Assembly (NCBI GenBank): GCA_027604005.1
Contig: JADGJT010000358.1
Location: 2,172-23,220, forward strand
Direction: 5' to 3'
DNA: 21,049 nt
From: Dinochytrium kinnereticum
Lineage: Eukaryota; Chytridiomycota; Chytridiomycetes; Chytridiales; Chytridiaceae
Part shown: one piece after another, positions 10,725-18,757 of the stretch
How positions within the stretch are numbered: the stretch's first letter is position 1
Layout of the letters: every line of letters starts with the position of its first letter
Notes under the pieces: generated by a model
Told to the model about the DNA's origin: nothing
Database searches by the model: none
What the model saw: only the letters and a program-made list of their open reading frames with translations
Made by a program: the position numbers and the translations under genes

Positions 10725-13700
10725 ATGGAAGCCACAGGGAGGGTCGAGATTCACAAGGTCACCGAGCACCCAATGGCTGATGGCGTTTGGATTGAGCAGA
10801 TGTTGAAGCCAAGGGCACGATCCGCCGCCCCACGCTCAACTCGTTCACGACCATCGACTGGGAAAGACCTTGGTGTGATGAAGTTACCGGGGGCTCAAGG
10901 GCATCAGTATTCTGGAATACCACCGTCGATCAGTCCTGCTGTCCAAAAGATTAAGGCGTCACAGGCTATCAACGAGAAGAACTCAAAGATGTATATGCAA
11001 AAGTTCACGACGAACCCTGCCGCAGCAAGATCTGCTAAAGGAAAGATTGTGGAGATACCCACACACCAGCAATCCACGGGGCATACGCAGTTTGGGAGGC
11101 CAAGGAGTGCATTGCAGCTTCGGAACGGGAAGGATATTCACGGAGCCTATAAGGACCCAGCTCTTATAGCGTCACCAATTTCTTTAAATCTTATTTCTTC
11201 GATGAAGGATGATGGATTGTCGTCTGCAGTTGCTAGTATCTTTAATTCCGGGGATGGAACCGCTAAAGCCATATCAAACACCAAACCGGCAAATATCCAG
11301 AACCATCCAACAGGCGCCATTACCACGACCCATCCCGTTGGTGCACATACAGCCGGATTTTATTCGAAAAATCATTTTACCTCCGCCCGCAATGCAGTGA
11401 AATCCGCCGACTTATCCAATTTGCTTCGCCCAAAATCCGCAAGTAACCACAAGAGATCTCATACAGTTGAAGGAATCGTCACCGAAGAACTTGCTAACGA
11501 TAGCTTTGTCATCGGACGCTCTCAAAATAAGGATATGAGCGGATTTACCGTTGCTCGTATTGATGTCGATGACCATAGCACCGACCGATCACCCAAACTG
11601 CCTAACAGAAAGATGTTTCATTTTTCGGATATAGCAATGATTGATACACACTTATGTACTCTAACGGACCCTGAATGTACTACAGAGCAAACCCTGGAGG
11701 CATTATCTGCTCTTATTATGCTAGCTGAGGACAACAGTAGGAAATTATATATCAACACAATATTTATATTACACAGAAACGACGGGGATAACAGCCCTTT
11801 ATGATCATGGGGCTGTTACAATCTTATTAGCTCTGATAAATCGCGTGCAAGATAATGTGGACGTTCAAATTCAGGCCTGTCATTTACTTGAGCTACTTGC
11901 AGAAGACAACCGTATGGTGAATTTAAAACGGACGCTAACAGTTCAACCAGATTTGACAGTCATGTCTATATTCAAGCAAAATGGTATCCCCACAATCTTA
12001 AAAACCGTCGCCAATATCTCTAAAGGTTTTTAGTGTCTCTTTAAAATCCACTAAAATAATCTAGAATATCATAACCGAAGTAACCACACATACGTGGGTG
12101 ATCACTCCAATAATCGTAACCCTGGAAAGCTTTCGACCAGAGGCAAGAAAACCCTTCTCTCGCAGTCTCGGTCAAACTCGAAAAACAATTTGTACCGAGC
12201 ATCGTCCTTGGGAAGTGCAACATCCTTGACCTCTCTTGCTCCAAGCGATGGACTAGAATCCTCTTCAGCAATCACCGATCGAATCGACCGAAAGAGCTCA
12301 TATATTCATGGCGGCCATAGCTCGAATGCGAATGCGAATCAGATCGCATACAACATAAGTATGTTGAATGAAGACAGTCTGATGATGGGCCTGCTGCAGA
12401 AATACTTTGATCCGCGCTTCCTGAATCAAATGGAAAAAATGGATAAGACTACACGAGCCGAGATAATCAAGCATCTTTTGTTTTTATTTGAGAAAGTTGA
12501 TCGGCTACTTGCGGTCAGCTCCTGTATTTCCTTAGATATTGAATTAGAGGATGCGATGGACAATATTGCAAATGAGGCTGCAAGTATTCTTAGCTGCGAG
12601 CTTATTCTAATGTACTTGATTGATCCGGATACTGGAGAACTTGTTGTTTGTGAATACGACCCTACGTTAGACCCGAAGGAGAAGGAACTACTATCAGATT
12701 TAAGGTTTCCAGCTGGAACGGGTATTGCCGGATGGGTTGCGCAGCGTGACGAACCAGTCAATATTCGAGATGCTGCTAATCATGAGCATTTTGATGCAGA
12801 CGTTGACACTAGGGGTGCTCCCGACATCATTCCTCATTCAATAATGTGCTTCCCCATCAAAACGCGGGAAAACACTTTAAAAGGTGTAATTGAGGCCGTA
12901 AACAAGATTGGGCAGAACGGAGTTCTTCAGCCATTCAACCATGAAGATGAATTTCTTCTAAAGACGTTGTGCAAGCAGGCTGGAATTATTATCAACAACG
13001 CTCAGATGTACGATACTATGAAGAAAACACAAAAGAAGGTCGAAGTGCTTCTTGAGACCACGCGTTCGCTGGGATCAACGCTGGAGCTGGATCTCCTCGT
13101 TAAAATGATCATGGACGCAGCCAAAGAGCTTCTTTCCGCCGATAGATGTACCTTATTCTTGATTGATTCAAAAGGAAAGCAGTTACGAGCTCATATTCAA
13201 GGTCGAGATATTATACAGGAGATCAGAATTCCAATGAATTCTGGAATCGCTGGTTTTGTCTTTACATCTGGAAGTACGTTACGTCACTCAGTCTTCTTGC
13301 TAACACTGAAAAAAGGTTCCGTTAACATTCATGATGCGTACAAGGACTCAAGGTTTGAATAGTATAGTTATTTTTTCTTAACCATGAAAGATTTAATCCA
13401 GAAGTTGATCGTCAGACCGGCTATATTACTCGCAATATTCTCTGCATGCCCATTAAGAACATAAGCGGGGAAGCGATTGGTGTCACGCAGATGATCAATC
13501 GAAAGAAAGGAGCTTTCGGTGCTGAGGATGAAAAAATCCTAAGTTCTTTTTCTGCGCAAGGTACGAGTTTCTGAGATTACTAAGGCTAACTCCACGAAGC
13601 TGCTGTCGCAATCGAAAAGTCGTACCTGTTCAAAAAGACCGAGGACATGCTTCGGGAAACCTCGCAAATGAAGAACTACCTGTCTATGATTCTTCAGTCT

Positions 13701-15076
13701 ATCACGAACGTAGTATTGACTCTCGACGGAGAAGGCCACCTAAGCCATATCAACCACCCGTCAAAGATGGAGATGGAATCCATGCTCGACGAGATGAAAA
13801 CGACTCATTACGAGAAGTGGTTGGGTATCGAAAATGCAACGTTCATATCCGACATTGATAGAGCTTATAATACTCCGGGTGGAACTATTATCGCACAAGA
13901 CTACGAACTTTGCCTAGATGGAAAGGTGCGAAATGTTAACTATACAATTGTGCAGATGACTACCGAGCTTGCGATTGGAGCGAGTGAGAATATAACGGGG
14001 AAGAGCTTAAAAGATACTGCGACCTATGAGAGTACTGGCGTTGTGATAGTCCTCGAAGACATTAGTTCCGAAAAGCGAGCTTTGATGACACTTGGAAGGT
14101 AACTGTACCATAGTCAATCATTCATTCTTAGACTTGTACAGGTACATGTCGCCAGCACTAGCTAAGCAGGTGATGGCGGAGGATGGTGGCCAGCTTGGAG
14201 GAAAGAGAAAAAAAGTGGCGATTCTCTTTTCCGATATACGGTCGTTTACAACGCTATCAGAATCCATGGAACCACATGAGGTTGTCGAGCTTCTCAACCA
14301 TCACTTCAGTGACGCTGTCAATGCTATTCTTGCTGAGCAAGGTACTGAACTTAAAGATTATTAAGGTATTAAGTCTTGCTCAGGTATTTTGGATAAATAC
14401 ATCGGCGACGCCGTTATGGCCGTATTCGGAGTGCCTTTCGTAAGCCCAGACGACTCTATACACGCATGCAATGCTGCCTTAAGGATGAAAGAAAGTCTTG
14501 CAATATTCAATGACTACCGATTAAAACATAACCAGAAAGAGATAAAGATTGGTATTGGACTTAATACTGGAATGGTGAGAATATATCAGCTATTTATTGT
14601 CATTAAATACTTTCTAGGTATTATCTGGAAACATCGGCTCAACAAAGAGGATGGAATTTTCTTGTATCGGAGATGCCGTGAACCTCTCCTCAAGAATCGA
14701 GGGCCTGACCAAACAATACCATGTCACTATTCTTATCACAGAACACACACTACTCGAGACTCATGATCAATTTATTACAAGAGAAGTTGACCAAGTGGTT
14801 GTGACAGGAAAATCGACAAAGGTCGGCATCTACGAGCTGCTTGGTCGTAAAGGTGATCCCTTACCCGACGAAGTCCTCGAAGGTGTCCACTTGTTCTTGC
14901 AAGGGCTCTCTAAGTATCGAAAGAGGTTCTTCAAGGAGGCTATCGATCTTTTTGAGACAGCCATACGAATTGCAGACGATGGACCGAGTAAGACGCTATT
15001 ACAGAGATGCAAAAACTATCTCGCAAACCCGCCGCAATCTGATTGGAACGGGGTTTACGTCGCTGAGGGTAAATGA
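10725..15076 (+). CDS. ARM-GAF-GAF-PAS class III adenylyl cyclase, ten exons
   Basis: The exons are 10725-11736, 11777-11911, 11951-12025, 12065-13273, 13316-13352, 13391-13560, 13600-14098, 14142-14341, 14384-14574 and 14618-15076, encoding 1328 residues. It is predicted to convert ATP to cAMP and pyrophosphate in the cytosol; no membrane span is seen. Domains: a disordered N-terminus (1-310); an armadillo-like helical segment at about 320-408 ('ITALYDHGAVTILLALI', 'QACHLLELLAEDN'); GAF-A at about 555-715 with N687, K688, F698, D702, E703; GAF-B at about 735-890 with N859, R860, F865, D869, E870; PAS at about 905-1043; and the catalytic domain from about 1047. Catalytic residues: metal-binding D1077 (FSDIR) and D1121 (KYIGD), adenine-selecting K1117 with S1191, and transition-state N1198 and R1202. 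The order GAF-GAF-PAS-cyclase is that of Anabaena CyaB1/CyaB2. The start at 10725 is preferred; the frame continues open to 10500. Confidence 0.9.
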
Positions 15077-15193: not shown

Positions 15194-16104
15194 TCATTTC
15201 TTGGATGCACTCCACTCCTTCGTAAGATCCACACCCTCCAAATGGGTATTGGTGATTTTTATCCTGCGACCCCTTCTTGCTTTCGCTTTCGCAATGACCT
15301 TATTCAATGTTAGCCAGTCGAATGAAAAAAAGCGCACCTTCTTTGACTTCATCAACGTACTCCCATCCAAAGTCCTCAGACCAGCTTATCGGCCATCAAT
15401 ATTATTAACCAATATGAAAGAAATACCCTTATTAAGCTCTTTTAGAAGAGCCTCCTCATCAGTCGGTAGCTCGACTTCATGCCAATACTTTGCGAATTCG
15501 GATGCCGGGTATTGAGCAGGGCCTATCTCACAAAGTAAGTAAGGACCCAAAAATAAAACCCCCAAACCATCACCGACCCTCTCGTTCAAGCAGTTGTAAT
15601 AAGCAAGACGTGGAGTGTCATCCTTGTTTCGCATTAAAAGTATTTCACCAGACTTTTCCAGTTCCTAATGAATCCGACGTTAAAGAAAGATTCATTTGCA
15701 GTTTCGTCGCTTACATCCACCATAGTGTATATATCTGGGCATGATTCTTTGAGCTCTCGAATGTCCGTACCCCCACTTTTCATATTACTTCTCAACAGAT
15801 CCAGCAATCCCTCCTTCGTCTTAATGGAGAATTCATGCTACACCCCGCATGAGACATTCAGGATTCCGCGTCAGTTTCATACCTTATACCATATAGTCTT
15901 GGCGGCCAGATCATAACCTATCTTTTCACAGGTTCTCCATACCGAAGTTTCAGCCAGACGAAACGTAAGCTTCTTTTGCAGCGCCTGGAATGAGATGGTA
16001 TCTCCATTCAATTCCTACCACAGTTAACGAAACATGCCTGTTGAAACCTATCCGGGTACCTTTAATGCTTTCAGGATATCAAAGAGCCTCTTTTGGTCGC
16101 CCAT
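15194..16104 (-). CDS. TFA2: Transcription initiation factor TFIIE, beta subunit, seven exons
   Basis: The exons, 5' to 3', are 16104-16060, 16014-15883, 15837-15715, 15664-15578, 15526-15427, 15384-15338 and 15298-15194, giving 212 residues. TFIIE-beta joins the RNA polymerase II pre-initiation complex and helps recruit TFIIH. Visible family features: an N-terminal winged-helix segment ('LFDILKALK', 'FSIKTKEGLLDLLRSN', 'GGTDIRELKESCPDIYTMV'); 'SGEILLMRNKDDTPRLAYYN', matching the conserved start of the second winged helix; a W-containing 'FAKYWHEVELPTDEEALLKE'; and a very basic C-terminus ending in 'RRIKITNTHLEGVDLTKEW'. It is shorter than human TFIIE-beta (291 residues), lacking the long N-terminal tail, so an extra 5' exon is possible. 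Intron 4 (51 nt, GTCGGT donor) is in frame and the least certain. It is convergent with the cyclase. Confidence 0.88.
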
Positions 16105-16262: not shown

Positions 16263-18026
16263 TCACTCATCCACATCAGACGGAGAGATGCTCCGTACTA
16301 ACGCCCTGACCGCCCTCCTCCCTCTCCGAGGATGAATAGCAACCTTTGCTAAAAAGGTCCCATCAAGCTCAGTGTCTTGCATATCGCAGAACCTCGCGCG
16401 GTAAGCATCCAAGGCCTTTTGCAGCAAGAATCGCTTACCAGCCAACTTCGGGTTGATGTGAGCCAGCCTCCAAGCGATCTCATTGCAAAAGGCTTCCTGA
16501 TTGTACCTTAACGAAGTATTGTCCGCTTCAAAAGGATCTAAGGAGGATGGAAATGGCGCGACGGGATTATCTGGATCGTGAAAAGGAGGGAGATATGCGG
16601 CATGGAGGGATTGGAGGAATGCTTCAAAAGTCCCGAGCGCCCGAGGGTAGATGCAGTTGGCTTCCTTGAATTCGGTATCGACGGCGGAGCTGTCGACCAA
16701 GTCCACATCAACACGAATACGAGTTTTGTAAAGCCGCCCCTCTGCTATTCCCTCAAATGTGATGGACTTTGGTGACTTCTGCCTCCTGGCTAGAAGAGAT
16801 AGTATCTCTGACCATTCTGAGTTCTCGTTTGTCCTCCTTGCCTCGTTGAGGAGCTCGTTCTCATCCATGTCATTCGCAGGATCCTCCACTTTATCATTCC
16901 TCTTCCGAAGAGTTCCATTGACGTATTTTTCTTGACGAAGGACACGGCGAGACCGTAGTTCAGGGAAGCGGTTCCGGAAACTGTCGACGGCCCTCTGTAT
17001 CAGACCCCGACGACCGCCAATCTCAGACTCGTTCAGATAAGAAAGCTTCCAACCCAAAAGGTTGACGGAGCTCTCGTAATCCCAACGGTTCCCTTTATAG
17101 TCTTGCTTCTCGCAGTTGGCCTTCGGGTAGACACAATTCTGGAACTTAAACTCCTCAGATATCTCATCAAACGCGATGTTGTCAATGTCCGTTCGAATGT
17201 GGAATTGCTGTCTGACGCCTTTTATAGTATAAGAGAAGGTAATCCATTCAACACCATCTTTGACTTCAACCAAAGGAATTGTAGCTGGAATCGCATGTGG
17301 TTTGGGCTGACCGTCATCTGTCATTGAAGGCTTATCTTCGCTTTCTACAGGAATTTCTTCCTCTTGGGCTTTGCGTTTTCGGGGGGCTTTCGTTGATGCT
17401 ACTTTTTTTGATTGCGAATGCGGAGCCGGTGTTGGAGCTTTTCTTTGTTGGGGTTGATGCATTGAGTGTCGAGTGGATGGTGTTGTCGGTGCTACGGCGG
17501 ATATCGTGGATTGTGAAGGTGAGCCGGACGGAGTTCCCATGGCTGCTAAAGCATTCATATGAGCAATCTGCTGCTGCTGCTGGAATATGATCCGAGCTTG
17601 AACTTCAAGTGCTTGCTGTGCGGCTGCTGAGTGCTGAGACGGGTGATGCAAGGCCATTCCGTAAGGATGCATCAAATGGGCGGGGTAAGGGAGTTGATGG
17701 TGGGGAACAGCGAGATGATCCATGCCTGGCGACCCGGCAAGCAGAGAGTACATCTGTGCAGGTGAGGCGAAGCCTGGGTAGTGCATGGAAGGATCCATCG
17801 AGAGGAGGCTAGGATGCATCGAGTGTTGTGCAGCGGCAGCATAAAAATCCAGCTCGCTTTGTGATCTTGGGGGGGTCGGTGGAACGAGATGCGCTGGGTG
17901 CTGTTGGTCGAGGAGTGACGGGCTGCCCTCGTGGACGGAGAGCATATCGCTGGACCTTTGAAATTGATTCTTCCGCCTCTTGAACGCTTTGATCGCAGCC
18001 TCATCAAACTTTCTGTCCGCCATCAT
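16263..18026 (-). CDS. Tandem DUF8032-domain protein, probably nuclear, intronless
   Basis: From the ATG at 18026 this encodes 587 residues; the same frame stays open to an ATG at 18122 (619 residues), but that extension is a hydrophobic stretch unlike the basic 'MADRKFDEAAIKAFKRRK' start. Numbering below is from 18122. Residues 34-290 are low-complexity, rich in His, Pro, Gln, Ser and Ala, with a Q5 run and a candidate nuclear localisation signal (APRKRKAQ, about 246). A DUF8032-type domain spans about 290-393 ('NCVYPKANCEKQDYKGNRWD', 'GGRRGLIQRAVDSFRNRF'). A second, more diverged copy at about 452-578 ('ANCIYPRALG', 'GKRFLLQKALDAYRARF') carries an insert of about 30 residues. DUF8032 is a fungal family of unknown function. 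A transcription-linked role is inference from composition. It is the only multi-domain gene here without introns. Confidence 0.82.
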   Translation of the reverse strand: MMADRKFDEAAIKAFKRRKNQFQRSSDMLSVHEGSPSLLDQQHPAHLVPPTPPRSQSELDFYAAAAQHSMHPSLLSMDPSMHYPGFASPAQMYSLLAGSPGMDHLAVPHHQLPYPAHLMHPYGMALHHPSQHSAAAQQALEVQARIIFQQQQQIAHMNALAAMGTPSGSPSQSTISAVAPTTPSTRHSMHQPQQRKAPTPAPHSQSKKVASTKAPRKRKAQEEEIPVESEDKPSMTDDGQPKPHAIPATIPLVEVKDGVEWITFSYTIKGVRQQFHIRTDIDNIAFDEISEEFKFQNCVYPKANCEKQDYKGNRWDYESSVNLLGWKLSYLNESEIGGRRGLIQRAVDSFRNRFPELRSRRVLRQEKYVNGTLRKRNDKVEDPANDMDENELLNEARRTNENSEWSEILSLLARRQKSPKSITFEGIAEGRLYKTRIRVDVDLVDSSAVDTEFKEANCIYPRALGTFEAFLQSLHAAYLPPFHDPDNPVAPFPSSLDPFEADNTSLRYNQEAFCNEIAWRLAHINPKLAGKRFLLQKALDAYRARFCDMQDTELDGTFLAKVAIHPRRGRRAVRALVRSISPSDVDE

Positions 18027-18757
18027 CCACAATAGTTCACTGCCAACGAAGGCGACGGGTCTTTTGAAGGATCGTAACAACAGGCAAGCAACCGCACCAA
18101 CTGCAAGCAAGGGACACTGCAAAGATGCTGTTTGCCGATGGTGATGCTCCCCCGCGATTAAGAAACTAACAAAGCTTAGACTCCAGGAAAGGCCAGGCTG
18201 TGAGAGGGACGGAGCAAGCAGCAGAGCAGCCGGAGAAAGAAAAACGGGTCCAAACAGAAGGTGGTTAGCGCGAGGTGTGCAGATTGAGCTGCTGCGATGC
18301 GGTCAAAGTTGGTTTCCACCCGTGGGCCCAGAAAGGCTGAAAAGCAGAAGTCGAGTCCCTGCCGCAAGTTGTCACGTCCAGAGGGGTGGCTGGTGGCTCG
18401 CAGCAGCAGCGACCCTTGGGCCCAAAAGCAGCATCCGCATTTGTCCGGAAGCCTGGATTTCGGACTTTTAAACATCCTTCTGCAAGGACCAGCATTGAGA
18501 CCGATATCCGAACGTTCTGCTGCTGCTGAAACCCCCTTTAACAGTTGTTTGAGAGGAGGCATCATCTGAGCAACGACGCTGGCCGGACGCTTCGGTCCGA
18601 TAGCACGCTTTGCCTGTCTCCAGCGCGATCATGGTTACAGTACTTACAGCAGGTTGTAATAACGAAATGCCTCCCAGTGCTCTGGTGACGTGCGTGACGA
18701 AGAGCTTCCAAGATCAACGGAATCGCAGGAAGCTTCTGGCATCGCAAGGACAATATT
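18027..18757. other. 731-bp divergent upstream region
   Basis: This is the longest stretch without a gene I trust. It lies between the DUF8032 gene and the 82-residue coiled-coil gene, which point away from each other, so it should hold both promoters and 5' leaders. It contains two GGGCCC-centred palindromes, TGGGCCCA at 18325-18332 and TTGGGCCCAA at 18417-18426, and short CAG/CTG runs (near 18398 and 18520). A 129-codon minus-strand frame (18176-18565) and overlapping plus-strand frames exist, but their translations are Cys/Ser/Arg-rich, show no domain and overlap each other. I do not call them genes. Confidence 0.5.

Follow-up and report, generated by a model that had tools for sequence, protein, structure and literature searches.

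Cyanobacteria are known to have adenylyl cyclases which make cyclic AMP (cAMP) and have a cyclic-nucleotide sensor built in. CyaB1 and CyaB2 of Anabaena consist of two GAF domains (GAF-A and GAF-B), a PAS domain and a class III cyclase domain. R291, T293, I308, D356 and N359 are given as the cAMP contacts of GAF-B of CyaB2 (PMC4411481), and according to a further paper the NKFDE residues do not contact the ligand, yet their mutation impairs binding (PMC11977230). We analyzed a stretch of 21,049 nucleotides (the window) from the chytrid Dinochytrium kinnereticum (Chytridiomycota, Chytridiales; genome of 22.4 Mb in 558 contigs, with the window in contig 357) and find there what is, judged from its sequence, a real and complete gene encoding a tandem-GAF adenylyl cyclase.

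In our hand-built splice model the gene occupies positions 10725-15076 of the + strand, has ten exons and encodes 1319 amino acids (aa). The nine introns are 38-58 nucleotides long and all have GT-AG ends. If left unspliced, seven of the nine would shift the frame or meet a stop; introns 2 and 4 are the exceptions, and for these two the support comes from splice signals and from alignment to relatives. An earlier sequence-only reading of this DNA had the gene extending over 12478-15076; the part from the GAF domains to the stop stands, but the gene starts about 1.75 kb further upstream, and the start of the Chytridium lagenaria orthologue P0003 coincides with that of our model. The features of the gene are as follows:

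10725..15076, + strand: whole gene, tandem-GAF adenylyl cyclase of 1319 aa (splice model; start backed by Chytridium P0003)
10725-11736, 11795-11911, 11960-12025, 12065-13273, 13316-13352, 13391-13560, 13600-14098, 14142-14341, 14384-14574, 14618-15076, + strand: exons
11652..12024, + strand: ARM-like helical segment, aa ~310-398, exons 1-3 (conserved in several of 26 orthologues; high-confidence helices in the P0005 model)
12487..13029, + strand: GAF-A, aa ~540-720, with NKFDE residues and without most cAMP-contact residues (Pfam; contact columns; PDE5 GAF structure as top PDB match by E-value)
13042..13616, + strand: GAF-B, aa ~725-876, with the CyaB2-type contacts R759, T761, I776, D820, T823 and NRFDE (Pfam; contact columns; contact list of PMC4411481)
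13617..14096, + strand: putative signalling helix and PAS-like domain, aa ~877-1036 (alpha/beta pattern in the P0005 model)
14194..14821, + strand: class III cyclase catalytic domain, aa 1055-1235, with D1068, D1112, K1108, S1182, N1189, R1193 (Pfam, PDB matches, residue columns)
14864..15031, + strand: TPR-like C-terminal helices, aa ~1250-1305 (modelled as helices in P0005; TPR_2 below cut-off in the same protein)

The NCBI protein of the gene, P0001 (HDU67_006422, 1315 aa), matches at 99% over the part searched. Compared with our model it starts 63 residues further upstream and is without the residues encoded by exons 2 and 3 and without six residues at the end of GAF-B. These gaps correspond to window positions 11795-12025 and about 13540-13610, and the omitted exons are conserved: the exon 2-3 segment is kept in several of the 26 aligned orthologues, others being annotated too short to tell. 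A chance frame or a pseudogene is ruled out by the open spliced frame, the strong domain scores and nearest orthologues that are 81-84% identical. Bacterial contamination can be rejected because introns are present and the protein falls inside a fungal clade, and a fusion of neighbouring genes is unlikely since GAF and cyclase domains are found together in a single protein in many species and in EukProt entries with transcript-assembly names.

A Pfam scan of the spliced protein returned GAF (4e-35, two stretches) and Guanylate_cyc (8.8e-27), that is, two GAF domains N-terminal to one catalytic domain, and in a PDB search the closest solved tandem GAF was that of Anabaena CyaB2. Of the CyaB-like domain order claimed in the sequence-only reading, GAF-A, GAF-B and the cyclase are borne out by Pfam, and the PAS domain is indicated by a fold model only. 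This structure prediction was made for the orthologue P0005, not for the window protein, and has a PAS-like pattern of elements between GAF-B and the cyclase; among the relatives, PAS_4 appears below cut-off in P0018 and Pfam finds PAS in the amoebozoan P0122. About 520 residues, partly ARM-like, precede GAF-A, with Pfam Arm below cut-off (E 0.016) in P0012 and absent from the scan of the window protein. Neither LRR nor PP2C was found in the Pfam scan of the window protein, which is thus not of the Cyr1 type, and an NCBIfam scan gave distant partial matches only, all below cut-off. Mean pairwise identity among 17 fungal rows is 74% for the catalytic domain, 68% for GAF-B, 49% for the PAS-like region, 40% for the C-terminal tail and 39% for GAF-A. 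In the VIA-align comparison model residues 711-932 are the only part that is well tested.

The residue columns of the catalytic domain show a complete adenylyl-cyclase-type active site consisting of the metal residues D1068 and D1112, the adenine-type K1108, N1189 and R1193. PMC12264004 names the two metal Asp residues and the Asn-Arg motif as catalytic positions and describes the exchange of Glu and Cys for Lys and Asp as converting a guanylyl into an adenylyl cyclase. The gene product should be a cAMP-making class III enzyme, as in the sequence-only reading.

To compare the pockets we counted the residue types R; T/S; I/V/L/M; D; and N/T/S at the five contact positions, a rule which we chose after the CyaB2 list was known; two misframed rows were omitted. 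GAF-B of the window protein has all five contact types (R759, T761, I776, D820 and T823) and GAF-A only one of five (L578, L580, E595, D646 and G649). The 22 fungal orthologues give the same picture: in GAF-B all five types are present in 22/22, and in GAF-A four or more are present in 0/22 and at most two in 21/22. NKFDE-type residues occur in both domains (N678/K679/F689/D693/E694 in GAF-A and N850/R851/F856/D860/E861 in GAF-B), each nine below the number given in the sequence-only reading, and are found in most of the 22 fungal GAF-A domains as well (N 22, K 21, F 22, D 22, E 20). Their presence in both domains does not mean that both bind, the GAF-A domains of the 22 fungal rows being without the ligand contacts; on this point the sequence-only reading was misled by the motif. 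Since the motif survives in a contact-less GAF-A, it is by itself no basis for calling binding.

Outside the orthologues, GAF-A has at least four contact types in 31/32 other bacterial or unnamed rows, 4/8 other eukaryotes, 2/11 cyanobacterial CyaB-like rows and 0/6 chytrid paralogues. The corresponding counts for GAF-B are 32/32 in the other bacterial or unnamed rows and 5/6 in the chytrid paralogues, none of which has all five. In the alignment of the second tree the N359 column of GAF-A is a gap in most non-chytrid rows, and its joint GAF-A count was discarded. GAF-A as modelled for P0005 has a third strand of only two residues, and a helix of four residues takes the place of one of seven in GAF-B. 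By these columns GAF-A is a domain which keeps the fold and the NKFDE scaffold with most ligand contacts lost, and only GAF-B still looks able to bind a cyclic nucleotide.

We consider it rather probable that the gene product is a soluble, homodimeric adenylyl cyclase and that it is activated by a cyclic nucleotide, probably its own cAMP, via GAF-B only. In the cell, we infer, a cyclic nucleotide, most likely the cAMP made by the enzyme itself, would occupy the pocket of GAF-B, and closure of this pocket would be relayed by the helix that follows GAF-B and by the PAS-like domain, raising the activity of the catalytic dimer. The outcome would be a positive-feedback switch like that of Anabaena CyaB1/CyaB2; the sequence-only reading had proposed such a feedback as well and had rightly labelled it as inference. 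GAF-A would probably serve dimerisation and signal relay, and the N-terminal part with its ARM-like helices may position or tether the enzyme.

A number of observations weigh against this proposal. T823 stands in the place of N359 of CyaB2, and GAF-B also matches PDE5 well (1.1e-33), the first GAF domain of which is a cGMP sensor; the ligand of GAF-B may therefore be cyclic GMP (cGMP). In the paralogue family P0041, P0042, P0043, P0046, P0048 and P0061 the T293 position of GAF-B is Ala in 5/5 readable rows; the pocket chemistry of GAF-B therefore drifts, hinting at a changed ligand preference in this family. The Pfam scan of the window protein yielded no PAS match, and the fold model, with a predicted TM score (pTM) of 0.45 and uncertain relative domain placement, comes from an orthologue. 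Position 1182 is Ser in 21/22 fungal rows and Thr in Rozella; Thr is found in 6/6 paralogues, 8/8 other eukaryotes, 11/11 cyanobacterial and 32/32 other rows. Thr or Ser at this position is presumably the mark of class IIIb, a mark which is linked to bicarbonate sensing.

Could GAF-B be a cGMP sensor, so that the enzyme would answer cGMP, made for example by the zoospore's rhodopsin-guanylyl cyclases, with cAMP? GAF-B aligns closely with the first GAF domain of PDE5, including the stretch ILCMPIKN, the alignments place Thr at the N359 position in PDE5 and PDE2 likewise, and the same genome has a rhodopsin and guanylyl-cyclase gene pair. In PMC4411481 the isolated GAF-B of CyaB2 is described as binding cGMP too, but CyaB2 is our best match and its tandem GAF is given there as cAMP-specific (PMC4411481). 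R759 and T761 moreover are the pair present in CyaB2, whereas PDE5 has Ser at the second position. We regard a cGMP sensor as unlikely. Quite improbable, in our opinion, is that the GAF pockets do not control the enzyme and that the input is bicarbonate, redox state, a ligand of the PAS domain or a partner of the N-terminal part. Bicarbonate is sensed by class III relatives whose active site is similar, and the N-terminal segment is conserved in several orthologues, but the near equality of GAF-B and the catalytic domain in conservation (68% vs 74%) and the retention of every GAF-B contact type in 22/22 fungal rows are hard to explain without a ligand. That both GAF domains bind cAMP in the manner of CyaB2 would fit the NKFDE-type residues in both; the second GAF domain of PDE5, a non-binder, shows these residues in the alignment as well, and with one of five contact types in the window GAF-A, 0/22 fungal GAF-A domains with at least four, and the reduced third strand and shorter helix of GAF-A in the P0005 model we hold this to be very improbable.

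We thus favour activation via GAF-B only, probably by cAMP. It is a far-reaching speculation, to which we give little credence, that in zoosporic fungi the enzyme might be a cross-talk node at which binding of cGMP from rhodopsin-guanylyl cyclases, or of a first pulse of cAMP, to GAF-B locks in a burst of cAMP, with zoospore swimming or encystment under its control; such a relay would predate the diversification of fungi, perhaps the split of fungi and animals, and would have been lost with the flagellum.

A first protein search gave 5827 matches among a capped set of 7997 scored candidates, and the best 120 of these matches were examined. Among these best 120 of 5827 matches at least 40 rows carry a fungal species name, all from genera which we take to be zoosporic (the lineages were confirmed for four of them), and no name of a non-zoosporic fungus was seen. 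Orthologues are present in Rozella, Catenaria and many chytrids. Searching with protist and fungal queries yielded the relative P0122 from Planoprotostelium fungivorum (Amoebozoa), and further relatives occur in other eukaryotes and many bacteria. The sequence-only reading had assigned the enzyme to the flagellated fungal lineage: the orthologues are indeed found there, but the enzyme is not specific to it. Many EukProt rows bear no species name and the eukaryotic range is only sketched here. With the second chytrid paralogue as query 29 proteins were found, 14 of them with a fungal species name, all chytrids, and a plasmid search brought no addition. One EukProt protein, P0121 (1936 aa), combines PDEase_I with a class III cyclase located after it and has five GAF stretches, a fusion of opposed enzymes in one eukaryotic protein.

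The careful tree, built from 65 rows and 758 columns and rooted at its midpoint, unites the 17 fungal orthologues in a single group (99/96). Within it Rozella branches first, then Catenaria with one unnamed row, then the chytrids, an order which fits inheritance by descent. Next outside stand P0060 (99/93), judged from its gene prefix to be presumably ichthyosporean, and then the chytrid paralogues (99/97). Approximately unbiased (AU) tests rejected the joining of the cyanobacterial rows with the fungal orthologues alone (p 9e-60), with orthologues, paralogues and P0060 (p 0.0017) and, weakly, with all eukaryotic rows and P0036 (p 0.034). The constraint to orthologues alone is too easy to reject, since it takes the fungal rows away from the paralogues nearest to them; the two wider ones are fairer. 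By the AU tests a recent cyanobacterial transfer into fungi is ruled out, and exclusive common descent with the CyaB-like proteins of cyanobacteria is not obtained; against an older link between cyanobacteria and the eukaryotic rows as a whole the rejection is only weak. Monophyly of all eukaryotes plus P0036 is not rejected by the AU test (p 0.228), and the tree shows three changes of the other-eukaryote label.

The genome of D. kinnereticum holds further cyclases. At L016 (G000:C63:32500-42000, minus strand) frames with LRR (770 aa), PP2C (597 aa) and a class III cyclase follow one another, and upstream of them lies an RA-like frame. LRR, PP2C and cyclase with RA upstream is the arrangement of yeast Cyr1. 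The locus was found through the PP2C adjoining a cyclase match, the PF08509 profile being uninformative (no match even in controls). With an LRR-PP2C-cyclase in the same genome the tandem-GAF enzyme is therefore additional to the usual fungal cyclase, and the contrast which the sequence-only reading had drawn to the cyclase of Dikarya does not hold within this genome. A second tandem-GAF cyclase of the same genome, P0043, has one strong GAF stretch by Pfam. At L018 (G000:C163:600-9500) two genes point away from each other and each combines rhodopsin-like with guanylyl-cyclase frames, which resembles an RGC/NeoR pair; one of the four rhodopsin frames is above the Pfam cut-off, and by eye one gene has the guanylyl-type Glu. 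At L010/L019 (G000:C176) an 820-aa frame with a GAF domain lies shortly before PDEase_I frames, perhaps a GAF-linked phosphodiesterase, and at L011/L017 (G000:C241) a GAF frame is followed by a frame resembling, by eye, the C-terminal end of a class III cyclase.

Three further frames of the window lie on its minus strand:

15386-15664, - strand: TFA2 winged-helix match just under cut-off, perhaps a TFIIE-beta gene just downstream of the cyclase gene
16263-18302, - strand: 679-aa frame with no Pfam match and, by eye, two similar segments of ~100 residues
20584-21012, - strand: UPF0113 PUA domain (Pfam), probably the ribosome-biogenesis protein NIP7

No description of a fungal tandem-GAF adenylyl cyclase was found in the literature searched, which mostly leaves out subscription papers and preprints. 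The chemistry is of a known kind, and in that literature neither the fungal family nor its single pocket or N-terminal part appears to have been described. With the fungal LRR-PP2C cyclase (Cyr1 type) the enzyme shares the class III catalytic domain, whereas no GAF was found in the Cyr1-type frames of L016. P0122 of Planoprotostelium fungivorum likewise has GAF and cyclase domains, with a PAS domain as well, and its place in the tree is within the largely eukaryotic portion that holds the fungal proteins, but it groups with other protist rows and has Thr where the fungal enzyme has Ser. The bacterial GAF-GAF-PAS cyclases of ~785 aa (Maridesulfovibrio, Sulfuritalea, Vicinamibacteria and others) have the same core order, mostly at 34-39% identity; unlike the fungal enzyme they have near-full contacts in both GAF domains, and they are too short for its N-terminal part. 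The tandem GAF of PDE2 and PDE5 has one binding and one non-binding GAF domain. Fungal GAF-B resembles their binding GAF, and the output domain differs, being a phosphodiesterase there. Anabaena CyaB1 and CyaB2 share the domain order, with a putative PAS domain on the fungal side, and the GAF-B contact residues with the fungal protein, and 9/11 cyanobacterial CyaB-like rows are likewise without a near-full GAF-A pocket. The fungal protein is separate from them in the tree, has a long N-terminal part and Ser for Thr at 1182, and with one of five contact residues in GAF-A departs from the CyaB2 type, in which both GAF domains bind cAMP. Being spread over zoosporic fungi and Rozella, with relatives in an amoebozoan, the enzyme is a testable candidate for switch-like cAMP signals in flagellated fungal spores.
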